Shown: in pieces, positions 22,498 through 60,250 of the stretch
Layout of the letters: every line of letters begins with the position of its first letter
Numbering within the stretch: position 1 is the stretch's first letter
Assembly: GCF_003014695.1 (NCBI RefSeq)
Contig: NZ_PYAS01000002.1
Location: forward strand, 1 to 64,000
Reading direction: 5' to 3'
From: Dyadobacter jiangsuensis
Lineage (GTDB): Bacteria; Bacteroidota; Bacteroidia; Cytophagales; Spirosomataceae
DNA: 64,000 bases
Notes under the pieces: generated by a model
Databases searched by the model: none
The model's input: the letters and a program-made list of their open reading frames with translations, nothing else
What the model was told of the DNA's origin: nothing
Position numbers and translations under genes: made by a program

Positions 22498-23292
22498 TTA
22501 CTTAAATAAAGTGCAAATCCATGCGGCCGCGTGCTCTACCAGACGGGTATGGCCGCTTTTTAGTTCAATGTATTGTTTTTCGGGAAGCAGCTCCGCCAAC
22601 TTTTGTACTGCTTTGGGTTTCAGCAAACTATCATAAACGCCTGCGAAAAGGTAAATCGTTACGCCATTTGCATTCGCTGTTTTGACCAATGCCGGAATAT
22701 TAAACCGCAGATCCCGGAATGCTACCCAGGAACGGTAAATGGTTTGCCTTTTCTCAGGCGTGTTCAAGACTTGCTGCGTGAACCGGACAAGGCTTTTGCT
22801 GGCCAGTTTCAGCGTCCTGGCCACACGAACACCGGGGAAAAAAATGCCGGGATGCCGCATTAACCATCCATACATCCATCGCGCGGGCGGGATGCGTGTC
22901 GCGAGCGCGTACATAGGGTGCTCGGATACACCGTCGGGTGCAATGAGGAATGCATTATCGATACTTTCTGGAAATGCTTCGAGCGTAGCCAATGCAAAGC
23001 GCCCGCCAATGCTGAAACCGGTAATGTCGAAGCGGGTGATGTTGTTTTGGTTTAGGAAATGTTGAATGCTGTTTTTCCACTCTGCTTTTGAAATGACTTC
23101 GAAAGGGGCATTGCTCTTTTGCCCGTGGTACGGGAGGTCGAATGCGTAGATGGTGTAATGCGTGCCGAGAGGAGTAAGGATTGGCGCAAAACACGATGTC
23201 CCGTCTTGCCCAATTCCGTGGAATGCGAGGAGAATGTTCGGGCCGGAGCCGAGTTTGTGAAAAGGGAGATTTTTTGAATAATGGTCACTCAT
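22498..23292 (-). CDS. Alpha/beta hydrolase
   Basis: 264 residues. The oxyanion block LLAFHGIGQDG lies near residue 22 and the nucleophile elbow is GFSIGG with Ser94. A late SGHTRLVEH supplies the probable catalytic His. The substrate is unknown. Its start overlaps the last eight bases of the upstream toxin gene, so it is probably translated from the same message as that TA pair. The MFS gene follows 24 bases later. Confidence 0.88.
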   Translation of the reverse strand: MSDHYSKNLPFHKLGSGPNILLAFHGIGQDGTSCFAPILTPLGTHYTIYAFDLPYHGQKSNAPFEVISKAEWKNSIQHFLNQNNITRFDITGFSIGGRFALATLEAFPESIDNAFLIAPDGVSEHPMYALATRIPPARWMYGWLMRHPGIFFPGVRVARTLKLASKSLVRFTQQVLNTPEKRQTIYRSWVAFRDLRFNIPALVKTANANGVTIYLFAGVYDSLLKPKAVQKLAELLPEKQYIELKSGHTRLVEHAAAWICTLFK

Positions 23293-23548
23293 AGGCTTCC
23301 CGGCGATGTTTTACTGCCGATACTTCTACAATCCTGATATGGTCCTCAATGCAGTAGAGTATCCTGTAATTTCCTACCCGAACCCGGTAAGTGTTTTTTG
23401 TAGTGACTAACTTTTTACTGCCAGAGGGCCTTGGCTCGTTGGCCAGCAGGCGAATGGCCGGGACTATTTTTTTGACTTCCTGTACCGGAAGCTTTTTGAT
23501 ATCTTTTTGAGCCGAACTATTAATGATGACTTCGTAAACTTCATTCAT
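23285..23548 (-). CDS. RelE/ParE superfamily toxin
   Basis: 87 residues. YEVIINSSAQKDIKKLPVQE, then PRPSGSKKL, TKNTYRVRVGNYRILYCIED and VEVSAVKHRREAYE are the full RelE/ParE pattern. It is expected to cleave mRNA at the ribosome or act on gyrase, neutralised by the small protein encoded just upstream. The ATG at 23548 is preferred to the TTG at 23551. Its 5' end overlaps the antitoxin stop by eight bases, the standard TA arrangement. The 3' end overlaps the hydrolase start. Confidence 0.9.
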   Translation of the reverse strand: MNEVYEVIINSSAQKDIKKLPVQEVKKIVPAIRLLANEPRPSGSKKLVTTKNTYRVRVGNYRILYCIEDHIRIVEVSAVKHRREAYE

Positions 23549-23732
23549 CAAATTTTCCCTCGGCTTTTAATTGTTGCACAAATTCTTCAAAGGGAATTGA
23601 TTCTTCATGTTTCCTTTCTTCGACCAGTAGCGCATCCAGAATATCTTCCACTATCTGACCATGTTTTTTCAGATCGATAATCACTTCGGTCTTGTGCCCT
23701 TGCGCGTCGGTATTGTATCTGACTCCGGTCAT
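23541..23732 (-). CDS. Antitoxin of the RelE/ParE pair
   Basis: A 63-residue acidic protein: YNTDAQGHKTEVIIDLKKHG then QIVEDILDALLVEERKHEES. The N-terminal strand (EVIIDLKKH) resembles a Phd/RelB-like DNA-binding part, and the acidic C-terminus can wrap the toxin. The family is not certain from sequence alone, but the position directly in front of, and overlapping, a RelE-type gene makes the role likely. About 40 bases separate it from the terminator behind prfB. Confidence 0.8.
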   Translation of the reverse strand: MTGVRYNTDAQGHKTEVIIDLKKHGQIVEDILDALLVEERKHEESIPFEEFVQQLKAEGKFDE

Positions 23733-23837: not shown

Positions 23838-24912
23838 TTAGGCTTCCATCAAATACGCCTTGATGAACGCATTGATATCACCGTTCAACACCGCTTCGGT
23901 ATTCGAAGTCTGGTAATCGGTACGGTGGTCTTTGACGCGGCGGTCGTCGAGGACGTAGCTGCGGATTTGCGAGCCCCATTCGATCTTGCGCTTCGAAGCT
24001 TCCACTTCGGCACGAGCCGAGTTACGCTTTTCGAGCTCGATCTGGTACAGGCGCGATTTCAACAATCGGATCGCAACCTCCTTGTTCATGAGCTGCGAAC
24101 GTTCCTGCTGACAGGCGATGATGATGCCCGAAGGCTTGTGGTGCAAACGTACCGCGGTTTCCACCTTGTTTACGTTCTGTCCACCAGCGCCACCCGAACG
24201 GTAAGTGTCCCAGGTAATGTCGGCCATATTCACCTCGATCTCGATATTGTCGTCTGCGAGCGGGTACACATACACAGAGGTAAATGAGGTATGCCGGCGT
24301 GCATTCGAGTCGAATGGCGAAATGCGGACGAGGCGGTGTACGCCGTTTTCCGATTTCAGGTTACCGTAGGCATATTCACCGTCGATTTCGAGGGTCACGG
24401 ATTTCACTCCGGCCACATCGCCATCCTGCAAATCCACCTGGCGCACCTTGTAGCCATTCTTCTCCGCCCACATAATGTACATCCGCATGAGCATGGAAGC
24501 CCAGTCTTGCGACTCGGTACCACCCGCTCCCGCATTGATTTCGATCACGGCAGGCAGTTCGTCGCCCTCTTCGCCCATCATTTTCCGGAACTCGATTTCG
24601 TCGAGTTTGTCGGCGAGTTTTTTGCCTTCGTCGTCCACCTCTTCTTCGGTGGCTTCGTCGGCTTCATAAAATTCCCAGATCGTGTCCAGGTCGTCGCGCA
24701 GGCGCGCGAGTTCCTCGTAACCATTGGTCCAGAATTTCAATCCGCGGATCTCTCTCATGACTTTTTCCGCGCGGGTCGAGTCATTCCAGAATTCCGGCTG
24801 AACAGTTTGCTGTTCGAGTTGTCCTAGCTGTTGTTTCCGGTTAGCGTAGTCAAAGATACCTCCCCAAAGCCTCTACACGGGCTTTCAAGTCTTTCAATTG
24901 CTCTGCAGTCAT
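23838..24912 (-). CDS. prfB: Peptide chain release factor 2, made by programmed +1 frameshift
   Basis: The reading frame starts at the ATG at 24912 ([20 protein letters not shown]), meets TGA after 20 codons, and continues in the +1 frame ([11 protein letters not shown]) to 23838, 357 residues in all. Release factor 2 recognises UAA and UGA and releases the peptide. The GGQ motif ([14 protein letters not shown]) and the SPF stop-recognition motif (RISPFDSN) are visible. The frameshift is the classical autoregulation by UGA. The downstream terminator is at 23776-23830. Upstream lies the decamer array. Confidence 0.97.
24849..24865 (-). other. prfB programmed +1 frameshift site
   Basis: On the minus strand this reads GGGGAGGTATCTTTGAC: an internal Shine-Dalgarno-like GGGGAGG, the slippery CTT, then TGA followed by C. 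When release factor 2 is scarce, the ribosome slips from CTT TGA C to continue in the +1 frame. This is nearly the E. coli sequence. Confidence 0.95.
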
Positions 24913-24970
24913 TGAATTTTTTGAATTTAAGTTAAAAATAAATGCTTCGCTGTCAGGTTTTGGCGGGGGT

Positions 24971-25100
24971 GGTCAAGTTTGGTCATGAATTGTCATGAGT
25001 AGTCATGGGTTGTCATGAGTGGTCATGAATTGTCATGAGTAGTCATGGGTTGTCATTAGTAGTCATGAATTGTCAGGTGTGGTCATTTGTTGTGACTGTT
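24971..25100. repeat. Decamer array A, GGTCATGANT-type, 13 units
   Basis: Thirteen successive 10-base units run from 24971 without a break (ggtcaagttt, ggtcatgaat, tgtcatgagt, agtcatgggt, and so on). Nearly all contain GTCA at positions 2-5. Four units form a 40-base higher-order unit present twice (24981-25020 and 25021-25060, one base different). Unit identity drops toward the prfB-distal edge. It lies downstream of the four-helix-bundle gene and 58 bases upstream of prfB. Confidence 0.95.
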
Positions 25101-25112
25101 ACCTGTCTTGAA

Positions 25113-25475
25113 TCACCGCAGGCCTTTGCCTATTGTTTTGATGTAGTTGTTAAGTTTAACTGATAACAACTCACAAAGTTGGTTCAATTCTGTGAATTTT
25201 TCCCTAGAAATCAGATTCCTGTTCAATGCTTTGGTAAGCCAGGTTACTGTTTCCCTTAAAGAACCCCTAGAATAGTAGCAGAAGTTCAGATTCTCTTTAT
25301 AATGGTATCTTCCAAAGCCCTCGGCGATGTTGGCAGCGATAGAATCGGAAGCGCGGATCAGTTGTTTGCCAAATGCGTCTTTCACAAAATAGCTCCAATC
25401 GTCTACTATTCGCCATATTTCGTCGCCAATCACCATTGCCAGCTGGTATACTTGCAGTTCTTCCAGTTTCATCAT
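25113..25475 (-). CDS. Four-helix-bundle protein (S23 / 23S rRNA intervening-sequence family)
   Basis: 120 residues. KLEELQVYQLAMVIGDEIWR, then SDSIAANIAEGFGRYHYKEN and FCYYSRGSLRETVTWLTKAL make up the four-helix-bundle family first seen as the ORF inside 23S rRNA intervening sequences of Leptospira. The Avd protein of diversity-generating retroelements has a related fold. Members bind nucleic acid in a few studied cases; the cellular role is unknown. ATG codons at 25475 and 25472 are both possible starts. The gene is bracketed by two decamer arrays and sits between prfB and lpdA. No reverse transcriptase or rRNA is nearby. Confidence 0.9.
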   Translation of the reverse strand: MMKLEELQVYQLAMVIGDEIWRIVDDWSYFVKDAFGKQLIRASDSIAANIAEGFGRYHYKENLNFCYYSRGSLRETVTWLTKALNRNLISREKFTELNQLCELLSVKLNNYIKTIGKGLR

Positions 25476-25557
25476 GCAGCCCGTTTGTTACCACATTGAT
25501 ACGCCAGAATCTCCCTTTGGTAACAACTTGTAATAACCTTATCAGCTTCACAACAAA

Positions 25558-25645
25558 TGACTTCCTGACTATACTTGACCAGACCTGACTAATTCCTGAC
25601 CACACTGACAACATCTGACCAGACCTGACTAATTCCTGACCAATT
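25558..25645. repeat. Decamer array B, TGACC-type (inverse of array A)
   Basis: About nine TGAC-bearing units at roughly 10-base spacing run from 25558 to about 25645. A 27-base stretch starting TGACCAGACCTGACT occurs twice, exactly 40 bases apart (25576 and 25616). Read on the minus strand the units become GGTCA, so the array is inverted relative to array A. It ends about 15 bases before the lpdA -7 element TACCTTTG (25661-25668). Confidence 0.93.
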
Positions 25646-25714: not shown

Positions 25715-27112
25715 ATGGCTCAAACATATGATGTGATTGTAATTGGTAGCGGCCCCGGGGGTTATCCCGCAGCCATTCGTGCTTCCCAATTAGGACTTAA
25801 AGTTGCTATTGTTGAAAAAGAAAGTTTAGGAGGAATTTGCCTTAACTGGGGTTGTATTCCAACAAAAGCGTTGCTGAAAAGTGCTCAGGTTTTCGAGTAC
25901 ATCAAGCATGCAAAAGATTACGGTATCAATGTAAGCGACTCATCGGCTGATTTCGGAGCGGTGATCAAACGCAGCCGCGGTGTTGCCGACAGCATGAGCA
26001 AAGGGGTGTCGTTCCTGATGAAAAAGAACAAGATCGACGTCATCATGGGTACCGGCAAAGTGAAAGGCCAAAAGACGGTTGAAGTAACAGACAAGGATGG
26101 CAAAAAAGTGGATTACACCGCTTCAAAAGGTGTGATCATTGCAACAGGTGCACGCGCACGCGAGTTGCCGAACATCAAACTCGACGGTCAGAAGATCATC
26201 GAATACCGTAAGGCGATGAGCCTTGAAAAACAGCCTGCTTCCATGCTGGTAATCGGCTCAGGTGCGATCGGAATGGAGTTTGCATACGTTTATAACTCAA
26301 TGGGAACCAAGGTTACCGTAGTGGAATTCCTCCCTAACCTGGTTCCGGTTGAAGACGAAGAGATTTCAAAGGAAATCGCGAAGCAATACAAGAAGATCGG
26401 TATCGAAACTTTGGTAAACTCTTCGGTAGAAAAAGTGGATACAAGCGGCAAAGGTTGCAAAGTGACCGTGAAAACTCCTGAAGGCGAGAAAACTTTCGAA
26501 GTAGATGTAGTGCTTTCGGCGGCAGGTATTGTTTCAAATATCGAAAACATCGGTCTGGAAGAAACAGGTATCAAAACGGAGAAAGGTAAAATCGTGGTTA
26601 ACGAGTGGTACGAAACCAGCGTTCCTGGATTCTACGCAATCGGTGACTGTACGCCAGGCCAGGCATTGGCACACGTGGCCACTGCCGAAGGGATTATCTG
26701 CGCCGAGAAAATCGCGGGGCACAAAACCGAAGCATTGGATTACGGCAACATCCCTGGATGTACTTATTGCCAGCCGGAAATCGCATCGGTAGGTTTCACC
26801 GAGAAAAAGGCGAAAGAAGCAGGCTACGATATCAAAGTAGGTAAATTCCCATTCAAAGCGTCTGGTAAGGCGGTAGGAGCAGGCGTTACCGACGGTTTCG
26901 TAAAAGTAATCTTCGACGCGAAATACGGCGAGTTCCTCGGAGCGCACATGATCGGCGCGAACGTAACGGAAATGATCGCTGAGGTAGTAGTTGCCCGCAA
27001 GCTGGAAACTACTTCGCACGAAATCATGCGTTCCGTACACCCGCACCCAACCATGTCGGAAGCGCTGAAAGGTGCTACTGAGGCGGCTTATGGCGAGGCG
27101 ATCGATTTGTAA
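25715..27112 (+). CDS. lpdA: Dihydrolipoyl dehydrogenase
   Basis: 465 residues. The FAD-binding GSGPGG lies at 11-16. The redox-active disulfide is in GGICLNWGCIP (Cys42 and Cys47). The second nucleotide site is GSGAIGMEFA and the C-terminal active-site block is HPHPTMSEA. It is the E3 subunit of pyruvate, 2-oxoglutarate and branched-chain 2-oxoacid dehydrogenases and of the glycine cleavage system. The gene stands alone; E1/E2 genes are elsewhere. A -7 element TACCTTTG at 25661-25668 precedes it, but no proper -33 box is seen; decamer array B fills that place. Confidence 0.97.
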   Translation: MAQTYDVIVIGSGPGGYPAAIRASQLGLKVAIVEKESLGGICLNWGCIPTKALLKSAQVFEYIKHAKDYGINVSDSSADFGAVIKRSRGVADSMSKGVSFLMKKNKIDVIMGTGKVKGQKTVEVTDKDGKKVDYTASKGVIIATGARARELPNIKLDGQKIIEYRKAMSLEKQPASMLVIGSGAIGMEFAYVYNSMGTKVTVVEFLPNLVPVEDEEISKEIAKQYKKIGIETLVNSSVEKVDTSGKGCKVTVKTPEGEKTFEVDVVLSAAGIVSNIENIGLEETGIKTEKGKIVVNEWYETSVPGFYAIGDCTPGQALAHVATAEGIICAEKIAGHKTEALDYGNIPGCTYCQPEIASVGFTEKKAKEAGYDIKVGKFPFKASGKAVGAGVTDGFVKVIFDAKYGEFLGAHMIGANVTEMIAEVVVARKLETTSHEIMRSVHPHPTMSEALKGATEAAYGEAIDL

Positions 27113-27116
27113 GAAT

Positions 27117-27149
27117 GACCGCCGACGGCTGACGGCCGACCGCTGAACG
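27117..27149. repeat. GC-rich heptamer array after lpdA
   Basis: Five consecutive 7-base units follow the lpdA stop: gaccgcc, gacggct, gacggcc, gaccgct, gaacgcg. All start GAC or GAA. The same unit type recurs at 27842-27917 and within the tRNA-derived repeats at 60003-60158. It is not a typical terminator; the real one follows at 27188. Confidence 0.85.
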
Positions 27150-27187
27150 CGGGCTGTCGTTTGTTGGAAGTAACAATATTGAATGCG

Positions 27188-27224
27188 CAATGCCCGGGAG
27201 TTATTCCGGGCATTGTTTATTTTT
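27188..27224 (+). terminator. Terminator after lpdA
   Basis: CAATGCCCGG (27188-27197) pairs with CCGGGCATTG (27206-27215) and is followed by TTTATTTTT. Confidence 0.85.
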
Positions 27225-27249
27225 ACATAAACTACTGCTCAACATTCCT

Positions 27250-27864
27250 ATGTCTGCAAACGCATTAACCAGACAACATTCCGAGAATCTGGAAACATTT
27301 CTGCGCTTAAACAACGTGGCAGACAAATTACATCGTGGAAATCCCAACGCTACAAAGAAACGATCAATGGATATCAGCAGTGACGACGTTTTACAGCTTT
27401 TGAGAAGTTTAAACCAACATAAGGTCAAATACCTGTTGGTAGGGGGAATGGCCGGAGTCGTTCATGGGCACATCCGGACGACACTGGATATGGACTTGTG
27501 GATTGGTAATACCCGTGAAAATACGGAGGCGTTCGTACGCGCTTTGCGGGAGAACGAGGTGGTTGGAGCGGAGCTTTTGACGACAATGCCTTTGATATTC
27601 GGATGGACGTCGGTACGATTCGGGAAATCTGGTTTCGAACTGGATTTAGGACATTCGTTAAAAGCTTTCGCAGATAGCGACTTCGAAGCTTGTTATGAAA
27701 GAGCATTGGTGGCGGACTACGACGGTGTGCCATTTTCCGTTATCCATCTGCGCGATCTGATTACCGAAAAAAAGGCAACTGCAAGAAAGAAAGACCTTGC
27801 CGATCTGGAAGAATTGCAGCGAATCTGGGAGGAGGATTACCGACGGCCGACGGCCGACAGCTGA
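27250..27864 (+). CDS. Nucleotidyltransferase-fold protein, AbiEii/DUF6036-like
   Basis: 204 residues from the ATG at 27250 (MSANALTRQHSE); an ATG at 27367 (MDISSDDVLQLL) is the alternative. The core LLRSLNQHKVKYLLVGGMAG, then the GHIRTTLDMDLWI motif (Thr, Asp-x-Asp-like), is a minimal nucleotidyltransferase pattern with the metal-binding acidic residues DMD. FTDSD-type and LDLGHS segments follow, and a KKKDLADLEEL end. Similar proteins pair with HEPN or AbiEi partners in toxin systems, but no partner is adjacent. The last residues (RRPTADS) are encoded by the heptamer repeat. Confidence 0.75.
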   Translation: MSANALTRQHSENLETFLRLNNVADKLHRGNPNATKKRSMDISSDDVLQLLRSLNQHKVKYLLVGGMAGVVHGHIRTTLDMDLWIGNTRENTEAFVRALRENEVVGAELLTTMPLIFGWTSVRFGKSGFELDLGHSLKAFADSDFEACYERALVADYDGVPFSVIHLRDLITEKKATARKKDLADLEELQRIWEEDYRRPTADS

Positions 27865-27917
27865 CCGCCGAAAGTCGGTACACACGATCGGCCGTCGGCG
27901 GTCAGTCGTCGGTCGTC
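27842..27917. repeat. Inverted heptamer array forming a long hairpin
   Basis: Left arm 27842-27871 consists of units gacggcc, gacggcc, gacagct, gaccgcc. The right arm 27888-27917 is the inverted equivalent, pairing 24 of 30 positions over a 16-base loop. The stop codons of both convergent genes fall within its arms: TGA at 27862-27864 for the nucleotidyltransferase-like gene and TGA (27918-27916 on the minus strand) for the deacetylase. It probably ends both transcripts. Confidence 0.85.
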
Positions 27918-28914
27918 ATTTCACCTTCTGCCTCCGCTGCATCGCCTCCCGCCACGTAGTTAGTATAATTCCTTCCTTCTCAATATACTTTCGCAACTCC
28001 GGGTCGATCATCGCCAGGAAATCGCCTTCGCGGGTGGGCCAGGAGTCGGAGATTTGCGGGAAGACTTCGGTGTGGACCGTGCAATGCATGATGACCATCG
28101 TGAGGCCGGGTTTCAGTTTACCTATCGCTTCGATGTATTTTGCGGTTTTGTATTGCTGCAATGCTTTTGCGGATTTGTCGCCATTTTCGGGGCCCTTCCA
28201 TCCGTAGCTGGTGTTTTCCAGGTCGTCCAGGACTGGCAAGCCTGCCGCCCAAAGCTGTTTGCCGACGTTTTGAGTCATTTCAAACTGCTTGTCGATCATT
28301 TTTTCCTCGCCCCTGATAGCGGTATTGTGGCCGCCGGGAAACATCACAGGAATCTTTTCCTGCATTCCTACTTTCAAATACCTTTCCAAAAACTCGGGCG
28401 TCGCGAACAGCGTGCCCATATGCGAATCGAGGTGCGTAGGCTCGAAGCCCATCGTGCGTGCGCGTTCCAGCTGCGCGCGGATTTCGGTTTCGACTTCGCC
28501 CGGAGAGGCATTTTTGACAACATCTGCTACACCGCGCCACAATGCACCTTCCGGATCGGTAAGTCCTTTAACCTGGTTCTTGCCGGCCAGCGGCCCCCAG
28601 CGATAGTCTTTCCATTCCGACGTCATGGTCAGGTGCAGCCCCGCATCGATGTCCCTGTTTTCTTTCCAGTAATGCACAAAACCAGGCACCCAGCCGCACG
28701 GCATCATCACACTCAATGAATTGGCAACACCTTCGCGAATGGCTTTGATAGCGCCCTGGTTGGACTCGTAGGACATACCCACATCGTCGACGTGGATAAT
28801 GAGCACCTTTTTGCCTTTGGGATACCCGAGTTTTTCGGCGTAGGTAGGTTCTGTTGTCTGAGCGAAAGCGCTTCCGGACAATAGGATTGCAAATAGCAGT
28901 GACACTTTCTTCAT
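27916..28914 (-). CDS. ChbG/HpnK (YdjC) family carbohydrate deacetylase
   Basis: 332 residues with a signal peptide (about 1-18, LLFAILLSGSAFA). The metal-binding Asp-Asp lies in HVDDVGMSYESNQG (Asp43, Asp44), and the second ligand block LDSHMGTLF contains His and Ser of the YdjC family. These enzymes remove acetyl groups from chito-oligosaccharides or hopanoid precursors. The export signal suggests a periplasmic glycan substrate. A single gene, reading towards the heptamer hairpin; the next gene is divergent, 53 bases away. Confidence 0.88.
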   Translation of the reverse strand: MKKVSLLFAILLSGSAFAQTTEPTYAEKLGYPKGKKVLIIHVDDVGMSYESNQGAIKAIREGVANSLSVMMPCGWVPGFVHYWKENRDIDAGLHLTMTSEWKDYRWGPLAGKNQVKGLTDPEGALWRGVADVVKNASPGEVETEIRAQLERARTMGFEPTHLDSHMGTLFATPEFLERYLKVGMQEKIPVMFPGGHNTAIRGEEKMIDKQFEMTQNVGKQLWAAGLPVLDDLENTSYGWKGPENGDKSAKALQQYKTAKYIEAIGKLKPGLTMVIMHCTVHTEVFPQISDSWPTREGDFLAMIDPELRKYIEKEGIILTTWREAMQRRQKVK

Positions 28915-59842: not shown

Positions 59843-59917
59843 GGGAGTTTAGCTCAGTTGGTTCAGAGCATCTGCCTTACAAGCAGAGGGTCGGGGGTTC
59901 GAATCCCTCAACTCCCA
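59843..59917 (+). tRNA. tRNA-Val (anticodon TAC)
   Basis: 75 bases; acceptor GGGAGTT pairs with AACTCCC, discriminator A. The anticodon arm is TCTGC-CTTACAA-GCAGA, giving TAC. The T-arm reads GGGGGTTCGAATCCC. CCA is not encoded. It is the intact parent of the degenerate copies that follow. Confidence 0.97.
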
Positions 59918-59918
59918 C

Positions 59919-59947
59919 AAAAAGCATCGAGCAATCGATGCTTTTTT
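59919..59947 (+). terminator. Terminator after tRNA-Val (copy 1)
   Basis: AAAAAGCATCGA, loop GCAA, TCGATGCTTTTTT. It is copied again at 60042 and 60181 as part of the tandem duplication. Confidence 0.85.
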
Positions 59948-59954
59948 CGTTTCT

Positions 59955-60039
59955 GGCCGCTCAGTTGGTTTAGAGCATAAGATTTACAAGCAGAGGGTCG
60001 GGGACGGTCGGCCGCTGCCGTTCGAATCCCTCAACTCCC
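59955..60039 (+). pseudogene. Degenerate tRNA-Val copy 1 with GC-rich insertion
   Basis: From GGCCGCTCAGTTGGTT to CAACTCCC it repeats the tRNA-Val text. The 5' acceptor strand is lost (GGGAGTT replaced), the anticodon stem is broken (AAGATTTACAA instead of CTGCCTTACAA), and a 17-base GC-rich block (ACGGTCGGCCGCTGCCG, 60004-60020) is inserted before the T-loop. It cannot fold as a tRNA. Confidence 0.85.
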
Positions 60040-60041
60040 AC

Positions 60042-60070
60042 AAAAAGCATCGAGCAATCGATGCTTTTTT
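60042..60070 (+). terminator. Terminator copy 2
   Basis: Same hairpin sequence as at 59919 (AAAAAGCATCGA-GCAA-TCGATGCTTTTTT), 123 bases further on. Confidence 0.75.
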
Positions 60071-60077
60071 CGTTTCT

Positions 60078-60178
60078 GGCCGCTCAGTTGGTTTAGAGCA
60101 CAAGATTTACAAGCAGAGGGTCGGGGACGGTCGGCCGCTGCGACGGTCGGCCGCTGCCGTTCGAATCCCTCAACTCCC
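60078..60178 (+). pseudogene. Degenerate tRNA-Val copy 2 with doubled GC-rich insertion
   Basis: Like copy 1, but the GC-rich block GACGGTCGGCCGCTGC occurs twice in a row (60126-60141 and 60142-60157). The acceptor end has become CTCCCGC. The unit is therefore 16 bases longer than copy 1. The copy would not fold as a working tRNA. Confidence 0.85.
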
Positions 60179-60180
60179 GC

Positions 60181-60208
60181 AAAAAGCATCGAGCAATCGA
60201 TGCTTTTT
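60181..60208 (+). terminator. Terminator copy 3
   Basis: Third copy of the hairpin (AAAAAGCATCGA-GCAA-TCGATGCTTTTT), ending with GCG instead of the longer T-run. Confidence 0.7.
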
Positions 60209-60215
60209 GCGTTTC

Positions 60216-60250
60216 TGGCCGCTCAGTTGCTCCGAATCCCTCCAATCTAC
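60216..60250 (+). repeat. Collapsed third tRNA-Val remnant
   Basis: TGGCCGCTCAGTTG is followed directly by CTCCGAATCCCTCCAA, so the D-arm is joined to the T-arm with the anticodon region deleted. It is the last recognisable piece of the tandem array. Confidence 0.65.

Follow-up and report, generated by a model that had tools for sequence, protein, structure and literature searches.

In Dyadobacter jiangsuensis, a small gene of the 23S rRNA intervening protein (IVP) family is situated between two inverted arrays of a short repeat unit that is also dispersed over the rest of the genome, and the gene and the arrays form a linked system, in cis and in trans. On balance we think it probable that this feature is a gene-bearing copy of a repeat system, composed of an IVP gene and its cognate inverted arrays, in which the IVP would act in trans. 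The DNA analyzed (hereafter the window) is a stretch of 64,000 nucleotides, positions 1-64,000 of contig NZ_PYAS01000002.1 in assembly GCF_003014695.1, from a genome of 8.27 Mb in 47 contigs.

Results

The IVP gene (25113..25475, minus strand, i.e., leftward and on the same strand as prfB) encodes a four-helix-bundle protein of 120 aa. In profile scans PF05635 was its sole Pfam match (1.8e-28) and TIGR02436 its sole NCBIfam match above the cut-off (2.6e-28); both denote the S23 family, named "23S rRNA intervening protein", which bears out the relationship to the protein of 23S rRNA intervening sequences (IVS) proposed in an earlier, sequence-only reading of this DNA. The left neighbour is prfB (release factor 2, 23838..24758, minus strand, TIGR00020 4.7e-135) and the right neighbour is lpdA (dihydrolipoyl dehydrogenase, 25715..27112, plus strand, TIGR01350 3.7e-170), both also assigned by synteny. 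Among close matches the IVP is 95% identical to the protein of D. fermentans JDP9, 94% to that of D. beijingensis and 92% to that of a Dyadobacter MAG. An AlphaFold model has four helices (mean pLDDT 93.5), and its best Foldseek matches are 2gsc and 2rld (E 2.5e-5 to 2.4e-4), both solved structures of the S23 family, followed by Avd (4dwl, E 0.024) and DGR ribonucleoprotein entries (TM about 0.7-0.8, E 0.02-0.13 and 7-9% identity for these Avd/DGR matches). PDB sequence matches to designed TPR proteins were taken as chance. The median dN/dS of the IVP was 0.07 at prfB–lpdA (20 pairs) and 0.05 at a second locus, leuC–leuD (leuCD; 7 pairs), with G042, G014, G013, G038 and G029 (leuCD) omitted for stops, frameshifted (split) or short matches; the protein thus does something, and it is under purifying selection.

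The gene is framed by two arrays. Array A (about 24951..25095, plus strand) is made of tandem GTCA-N6 decamers with 20- and 40-base higher-order repeats and was identified by Tandem Repeats Finder (TRF), a repeat finder and the genome-wide pattern, its GTCA units running by eye from about 24952 to 25095; array B (about 25548..25643, minus strand; TRF and repeat finder) is the same decamer inverted, so that it reads TGAC on the plus strand. The innermost units, at 25082..25095 (plus) and 25548..25561 (minus), are the two arms of a perfect 14-base inverted repeat with 100% complementarity. TRF reported periods 10 and 20 in array A at 24982-25086 and period 40 at 24951-25077 and 24982-25093, and in array B the repeat finder detected two 38-base copies (89%) spaced 40 bases apart; a 40-base higher-order repeat is therefore present in both arrays. 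The inverted framing and the 40-base repeat, both claimed from the letters, were thus confirmed.

Several other elements were observed in the window. A 9-base inverted repeat, TTGTTACCA/TGGTAACAA (25485-25493 and 25518-25526), lies directly upstream of the IVP start codon and is seen by eye in some relatives too, e.g., G003. A ParE-type toxin gene (PF05016, 3.9e-12) and a small upstream ORF adjoin prfB at 23285-23732, and PF05016 matches adjoin prfB in several relatives as well. A DUF2204-type nucleotidyltransferase gene (27190-27864, PF09970 1.4e-5) is bordered by short GACCGCC-type arrays (27116-27920), with both orientations on the right side, and may be another inverted-array cargo. A 123-base tandem repeat (59897-60229, 2.6 copies, 90%) starts within the 3' end of a tRNA-Val gene (59843-59918).

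The genes prfB and lpdA are neighbours in all 48 Dyadobacter genomes compared, with an IVP gene between them in 21; the other 27 provide the adjacency without the module that the sequence-only reading had proposed to look for. GTCA-unit pairs are present at this locus in 19 of the 21 genomes with the gene and in one of the 27 without it (166 vs 1 pair matches), and 18 of the 21 gene-bearing genomes hold both orientations of the unit. The gene and the inverted arrays are therefore nearly always jointly present or absent here, in keeping with the claim that they are one unit. The two exceptions, G002 and G035, have an orthologous IVP gene with a TTCG decamer in both arms instead. A simple insertion between prfB and lpdA, as had been suggested, fits poorly, because, by eye, little of the spacer from the prfB start to the lpdA promoter is common to filled and empty alleles. 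Element-free alleles exist and differ by replacement; no target duplication was noticed in these alleles by eye, and neither an intermediate nor an excision product was seen. On the species tree, IVP presence at prfB–lpdA requires 15 changes vs 15.9 for random labels.

By eye, the empty allele (e.g., L155, L168 and L171) often holds a different, CTGAGCGnAGTCGAAG-type hairpin, together with a conserved stretch that includes a CAAAGGTA box and is not seen in the filled allele; we take this box to resemble a Bacteroidota promoter. The prfB–lpdA arrays of G014, G038, G040 and G042 (L200, L197, L198 and L193, respectively) appear to be nested, the arms containing additional small palindromes; in some IVP copies of these genomes the reading frame is shifted or interrupted by a stop, yet the arrays remain.

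IVP loci in general have inverted flanks. Across 104 IVP loci, the window and its orthologues included (8 of 112 were omitted for short flanks), the median inverted flank alignment score was 18, vs 11.5 for 206 other ORFs taken from these loci as controls, and a score of at least 16 was reached by 73/104 and 20/206, respectively; flank tests covered most of some 110 Dyadobacter IVP matches. With 300-base flanks, 27/32 Dyadobacter IVP loci vs 0/29 ParE loci reached 16, and with 500-base flanks 27/32 vs 3/29 (1 of 30 ParE loci omitted); among further hand-picked IVP loci with 350-base flanks, 18/20 did so. The ParE control speaks against inverted flanks being a general trait of small accessory genes, but 15 of 29 GxxExxY loci (L323-L352) also reach at least 16 (8/11 at leuCD, all 11 being one orthologous site, and 7/18 elsewhere; 1 of 30 omitted).

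By eye, the array units differ between IVP lineages, with unit lengths read as 7, 8 and 10. Helical phasing is therefore an unlikely cause of the 10-base unit. The earlier expectation that the decamers flank homologous genes thus stood as regards inverted arrays, which are often present (73/104), and failed as regards a universal GTCA decamer, since other lineages have other units. The array type follows the protein: among 89 elements (loci with an arm score below 16, a stop or short flanks were omitted), cross-arm inverted similarity rose with IVP identity (rho 0.37, 3714 pairs that are non-orthologous in that their outer flanks have no blastn match, a definition that can miss distant orthologues). 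None of 300 permutations equalled this value, and the controls gave 0.12 for direct orientation and 0.02 for shuffled arms; six pairs above 80% identity lay off the trend.

At leuC–leuD, readable in 47 of the 48 genomes, 21 alleles are empty, 13 hold an IVP gene and 13 a GxxExxY gene (PF13366, PDDEXK_3). All 13 IVP genes lie between inverted arrays, nine of the GGCT type and four of the AAGC type, and 8/13 reach a flank score of 16. The GxxExxY genes occupy exactly the position that IVP genes have in other species and lie between inverted ACACAGAG-type arrays, e.g., L304 and L318; the family assignment was confirmed by profile scan for the copy of G038. In G045, the fetched contig end has no leuC match, and leuC–leuD was scored as lacking the IVP or left out, depending on the test. 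On the tree, the leuCD states cluster (12 changes vs 21.4).

In the D. jiangsuensis genome, four GTCA units in register occur 470 times (215 + 255) and the backward-read pattern not at all (0 + 0), so the arrays are not due to chance. Forty array stretches were fetched from places among the matches listed, and 8 of the 40 had no paired array; from these stretches and the window, 34 pairs were extracted, with the GTCA arm on the left and the TGAC arm on the right. The loop spans 0-73 bases in 30 of the 34 pairs, 211-234 bases in three and 452 bases in the window pair; the loops of all 33 pairs outside the window are too short for an IVP-size gene, and only the window pair has a gene in its loop. 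The three longer loops (L209, L220 and L222) hold a 211-234-base repeat with a GCCTGACGGCATTT-like palindromic core, unrelated to the IVP. The opposite arm order (TGAC left, GTCA right) was not found within 5 kb in this genome and was found once in another (G003:C1:711126-711199), in both cases among the matches listed. The other two IVP genes of the genome have no GTCA arrays and flank scores of 15.0 (L001) and 26.5 (L002). As most of the copies examined hold no gene, the arrays are not specific to the gene module, and array abundance without such a gene, which the sequence-only reading had named as evidence against itself, was found to that extent.

The array copies sit near ORF ends, 22 between tandem, 9 between convergent and 2 between divergent ORFs (n = 33, ORF calling). 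Their arms have the motif in common and not its variants: the arm-to-arm self-match was 31.2 vs an expected 31.4 (p 0.81), and 245 of 500 unit-order shuffles matched or exceeded the observed value. Base-by-base arm pairing in the array copies of this genome was rejected on this ground, with neither self-match above expectation nor an effect of unit order. A fixed inner boundary unit, GTCATT[TG][GA]TTGT, was likewise rejected (4/68 inner, 6/393 middle and 1/68 outer units); a weaker TT preference was detected at the inner unit (19/68 vs 41/393, p 3e-4). At two further sites with a GTCA array in this genome, some relatives have, by eye, arrays of other types in about the same place, and array sites therefore seem to be reused.

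The number of arrays in a genome was compared with IVP presence after subtraction of the IVP's own locus. The median of net GTCA matches was 41 in genomes with the prfB–lpdA IVP vs 2 in those without it (one-sided p 6.6e-5, kinship uncorrected), and in independent sister pairs GTCA arrays were commoner with the IVP in all 13 untied pairs (1 tie, p 1.2e-4); single-gene trees gave 15:1 (leuD only) and 11:1 (prfB only). GGCT arrays were commoner with the nine GGCT-type leuCD IVPs in 7/7 pairs (p 0.008), although net GGCT counts are low (1-22) and this pattern also gives matches when read backwards; the result was 7:0 on the leuD tree, 6:0 on the prfB tree and 7:1 on the leuD tree with AAGC-type leuCD IVPs scored as absent. 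The TTCG pattern has no copies in G035 and only 4 in G002, despite their TTCG-armed IVPs, and was too rare for a third abundance test.

The swapped tests were not significant in sister pairs: GGCT-type leuCD IVPs vs GTCA arrays gave 4:2, and prfB–lpdA IVPs vs GGCT arrays 9:4 (unpaired p 0.04, which ignores kinship). GGCT arrays were also commoner with the four AAGC-type leuCD IVPs (2:0 pairs; unpaired p 0.03, again ignoring kinship). Because the latter two comparisons lean the same way as the matched ones, the type-specificity of the link between IVP and arrays is not clean. GxxExxY presence at leuCD did not predict GTCA or GGCT array numbers (3:4 and 3:4 pairs), and genome size was rejected as a cause of array numbers (6:8 pairs). 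Two genomes that lack a prfB–lpdA IVP are nevertheless rich in arrays (342 matches in G044 and 97 in G026), which recent loss of the IVP would explain.

An RNA-processing element, as had also been proposed, found no support. On the gene-sense strand, G·U mismatches in the arms of IVP loci did not outnumber A·C ones (160 vs 190, p 0.12; 19 loci above and 38 below), and the duplex energy of the arms did not differ between sense and antisense. Compared with 20 shuffles, the sense transcript has the better fold (z -4.0), a value that inverted repeats alone give. A stem selected in the transcript was rejected on the mismatches and the strand-specific duplex energies, and the lack of a G·U preference in the sense RNA therefore points to DNA.

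Discussion

Three known systems resemble the feature in part. Excerpts of PMC2817692 and PMC3116915 describe the RAYT as a gene between two inverted copies of a dispersed palindromic repeat, with a repeat type that coevolves with the protein, and state that RAYT presence correlates with the abundance of the cognate REPs, on which RAYTs are proposed to act. The IVP gene is likewise flanked by two inverted copies of a genome-dispersed repeat; its array type coevolves with the protein lineage (rho 0.37 vs 0.12 and 0.02 in the controls), and its presence correlates with cognate array abundance (13:0 with 1 tie, and 7:0), with some cross tests leaning alike. The two systems differ in that the IVP is an S23/Avd-like four-helix bundle with no tyrosine transposase domain of the IS200/IS605 kind. 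Its repeats consist of short units in paired tandem arrays, in contrast to REPs, which are palindromes of 20-40 bases (according to an excerpt of PMC3733652); moreover, purifying selection acts on the IVP, while fast evolution is reported for RAYTs.

The 23S rRNA IVS shares with the feature a PF05635 protein between complementary ends (as given in an excerpt of PMC4990558). However, neither the window copy nor any of its 20 orthologues is inside an rRNA gene, their place being between prfB and lpdA; the arms are short, degenerate tandem arrays, which are found gene-less across the genome as well; and no RNA-level (G·U) signature was found in the arms of IVP loci. The DGR protein Avd has a fold in common with the IVP (4dwl and DGR ribonucleoprotein entries, E 0.02-0.13), a similarity of PF05635 also noted in an excerpt of PMC10053308, but is only 7-9% identical to it, and no reverse transcriptase was present among the six proteins scanned (the IVP and five neighbours). 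We rate the IVP/array system as a kind of its own, since it has a RAYT/REP-like logic without the protein that defines that kind, and an IVS-like protein without the place or the RNA signature of the IVS; were the kind defined by logic alone, the system would belong with RAYT/REP. No description of IVP genes with cognate dispersed arrays was found, by title or abstract, among the literature matches listed, which were mostly open-access.

In the mechanism that we favour, the flanking arrays and the copies between other genes, each consisting of an array, a short loop and the inverted array, would be the substrate, and the IVP would be a trans-acting factor that keeps its array family present, the role proposed for RAYT with REP. 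The IVP would recognise the array unit in DNA, and the palindromic form of the arrays suggests a hairpin in single-stranded DNA. We know of no catalytic site in the four-helix bundle, and we therefore infer that the IVP would promote array copying or retention together with an enzyme encoded elsewhere; by analogy with Avd, its partner may be a polymerase or reverse transcriptase. The correlation is no proof that the IVP acts on the arrays.

The same facts could be read with the IVP as a mere passenger, the arrays being spread by an unlinked enzyme, e.g., an IS200/IS605-type (RAYT) transposase, with the IVP riding inside some copies. The arrays can indeed carry other cargo, as the GxxExxY genes between arrays of another type at leuC–leuD in 13 genomes and the different 211-234-base repeat in three array loops indicate, and a bundle without a known catalytic site would fit such a role. 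A passenger, however, should neither foretell how many arrays a genome has nor vary with the array type from locus to locus, as the IVP does. Purifying selection on the IVP also speaks against this reading, and GxxExxY, the one other cargo at leuCD, was no predictor of either array family counted (GTCA 3:4, GGCT 3:4). We hold this explanation to be unlikely. It is, in our estimate, quite unlikely that the arrays are chromosomal binding sites (terminator, insulator or nucleoid) used by the IVP as a DNA-binding protein and kept by selection where an IVP exists, a reading that expects the same correlations as the favoured one. The position of the arrays near ORF ends and rarely between divergent ORFs (2/33, ORF calling), the two sites where, by eye, the array is retained but is of different types in different species, and the purifying selection on the IVP would suit such a host function. 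It accords less well with the patchy prfB–lpdA gene (15 changes vs 15.9 for random labels, though leuCD states are clustered, 12 vs 21.4), with net array numbers that range from 0 to 601 between species of one genus, and with unit lengths read as 7, 8 and 10, which do not fit one helical phase.

It appears very improbable to us that the element is a free-standing IVS, whose transcribed arms would form a stem from which RNase III cuts out the loop with the gene, as happens in 23S rRNA. The protein family is the same, in Coxiella complementary sequences border the IVS and RNase III cleaves it (excerpt of PMC4990558), and the IVP genes lie on the prfB strand in 21 genomes and on the leu operon strand in 13; the transcript also folds well (z -4.0), but this score is explained by the inverted repeats alone. 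The balance of G·U and A·C mismatches (160 vs 190, p 0.12), the like energies of sense and antisense duplexes and the dominance of gene-less copies all argue against it.

Returning to the favoured reading of an IVP acting in trans on its cognate arrays, we suggest tentatively, as something we find less probable than its being untrue, that IVP/S23 proteins at large drive a repeat class of their own in Bacteroidota and neighbouring phyla, with a unit recognised per lineage and inverted arrays maintained with or without the gene; on this view the 23S rRNA IVS would be a special case, an element of this class inserted into an rRNA hairpin, and Avd would be a relative that came to serve a reverse transcriptase. 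PF05635 is described, in excerpts of PMC4990558 and PMC11270868, as a widespread family whose function is not known. A link between IVP and dispersed repeats would give this family a testable substrate, would show REP-like repeat dynamics under a protein that is not a transposase, and could account for how rRNA intervening sequences arose. The array sites moreover contribute to intergenic change between close species.
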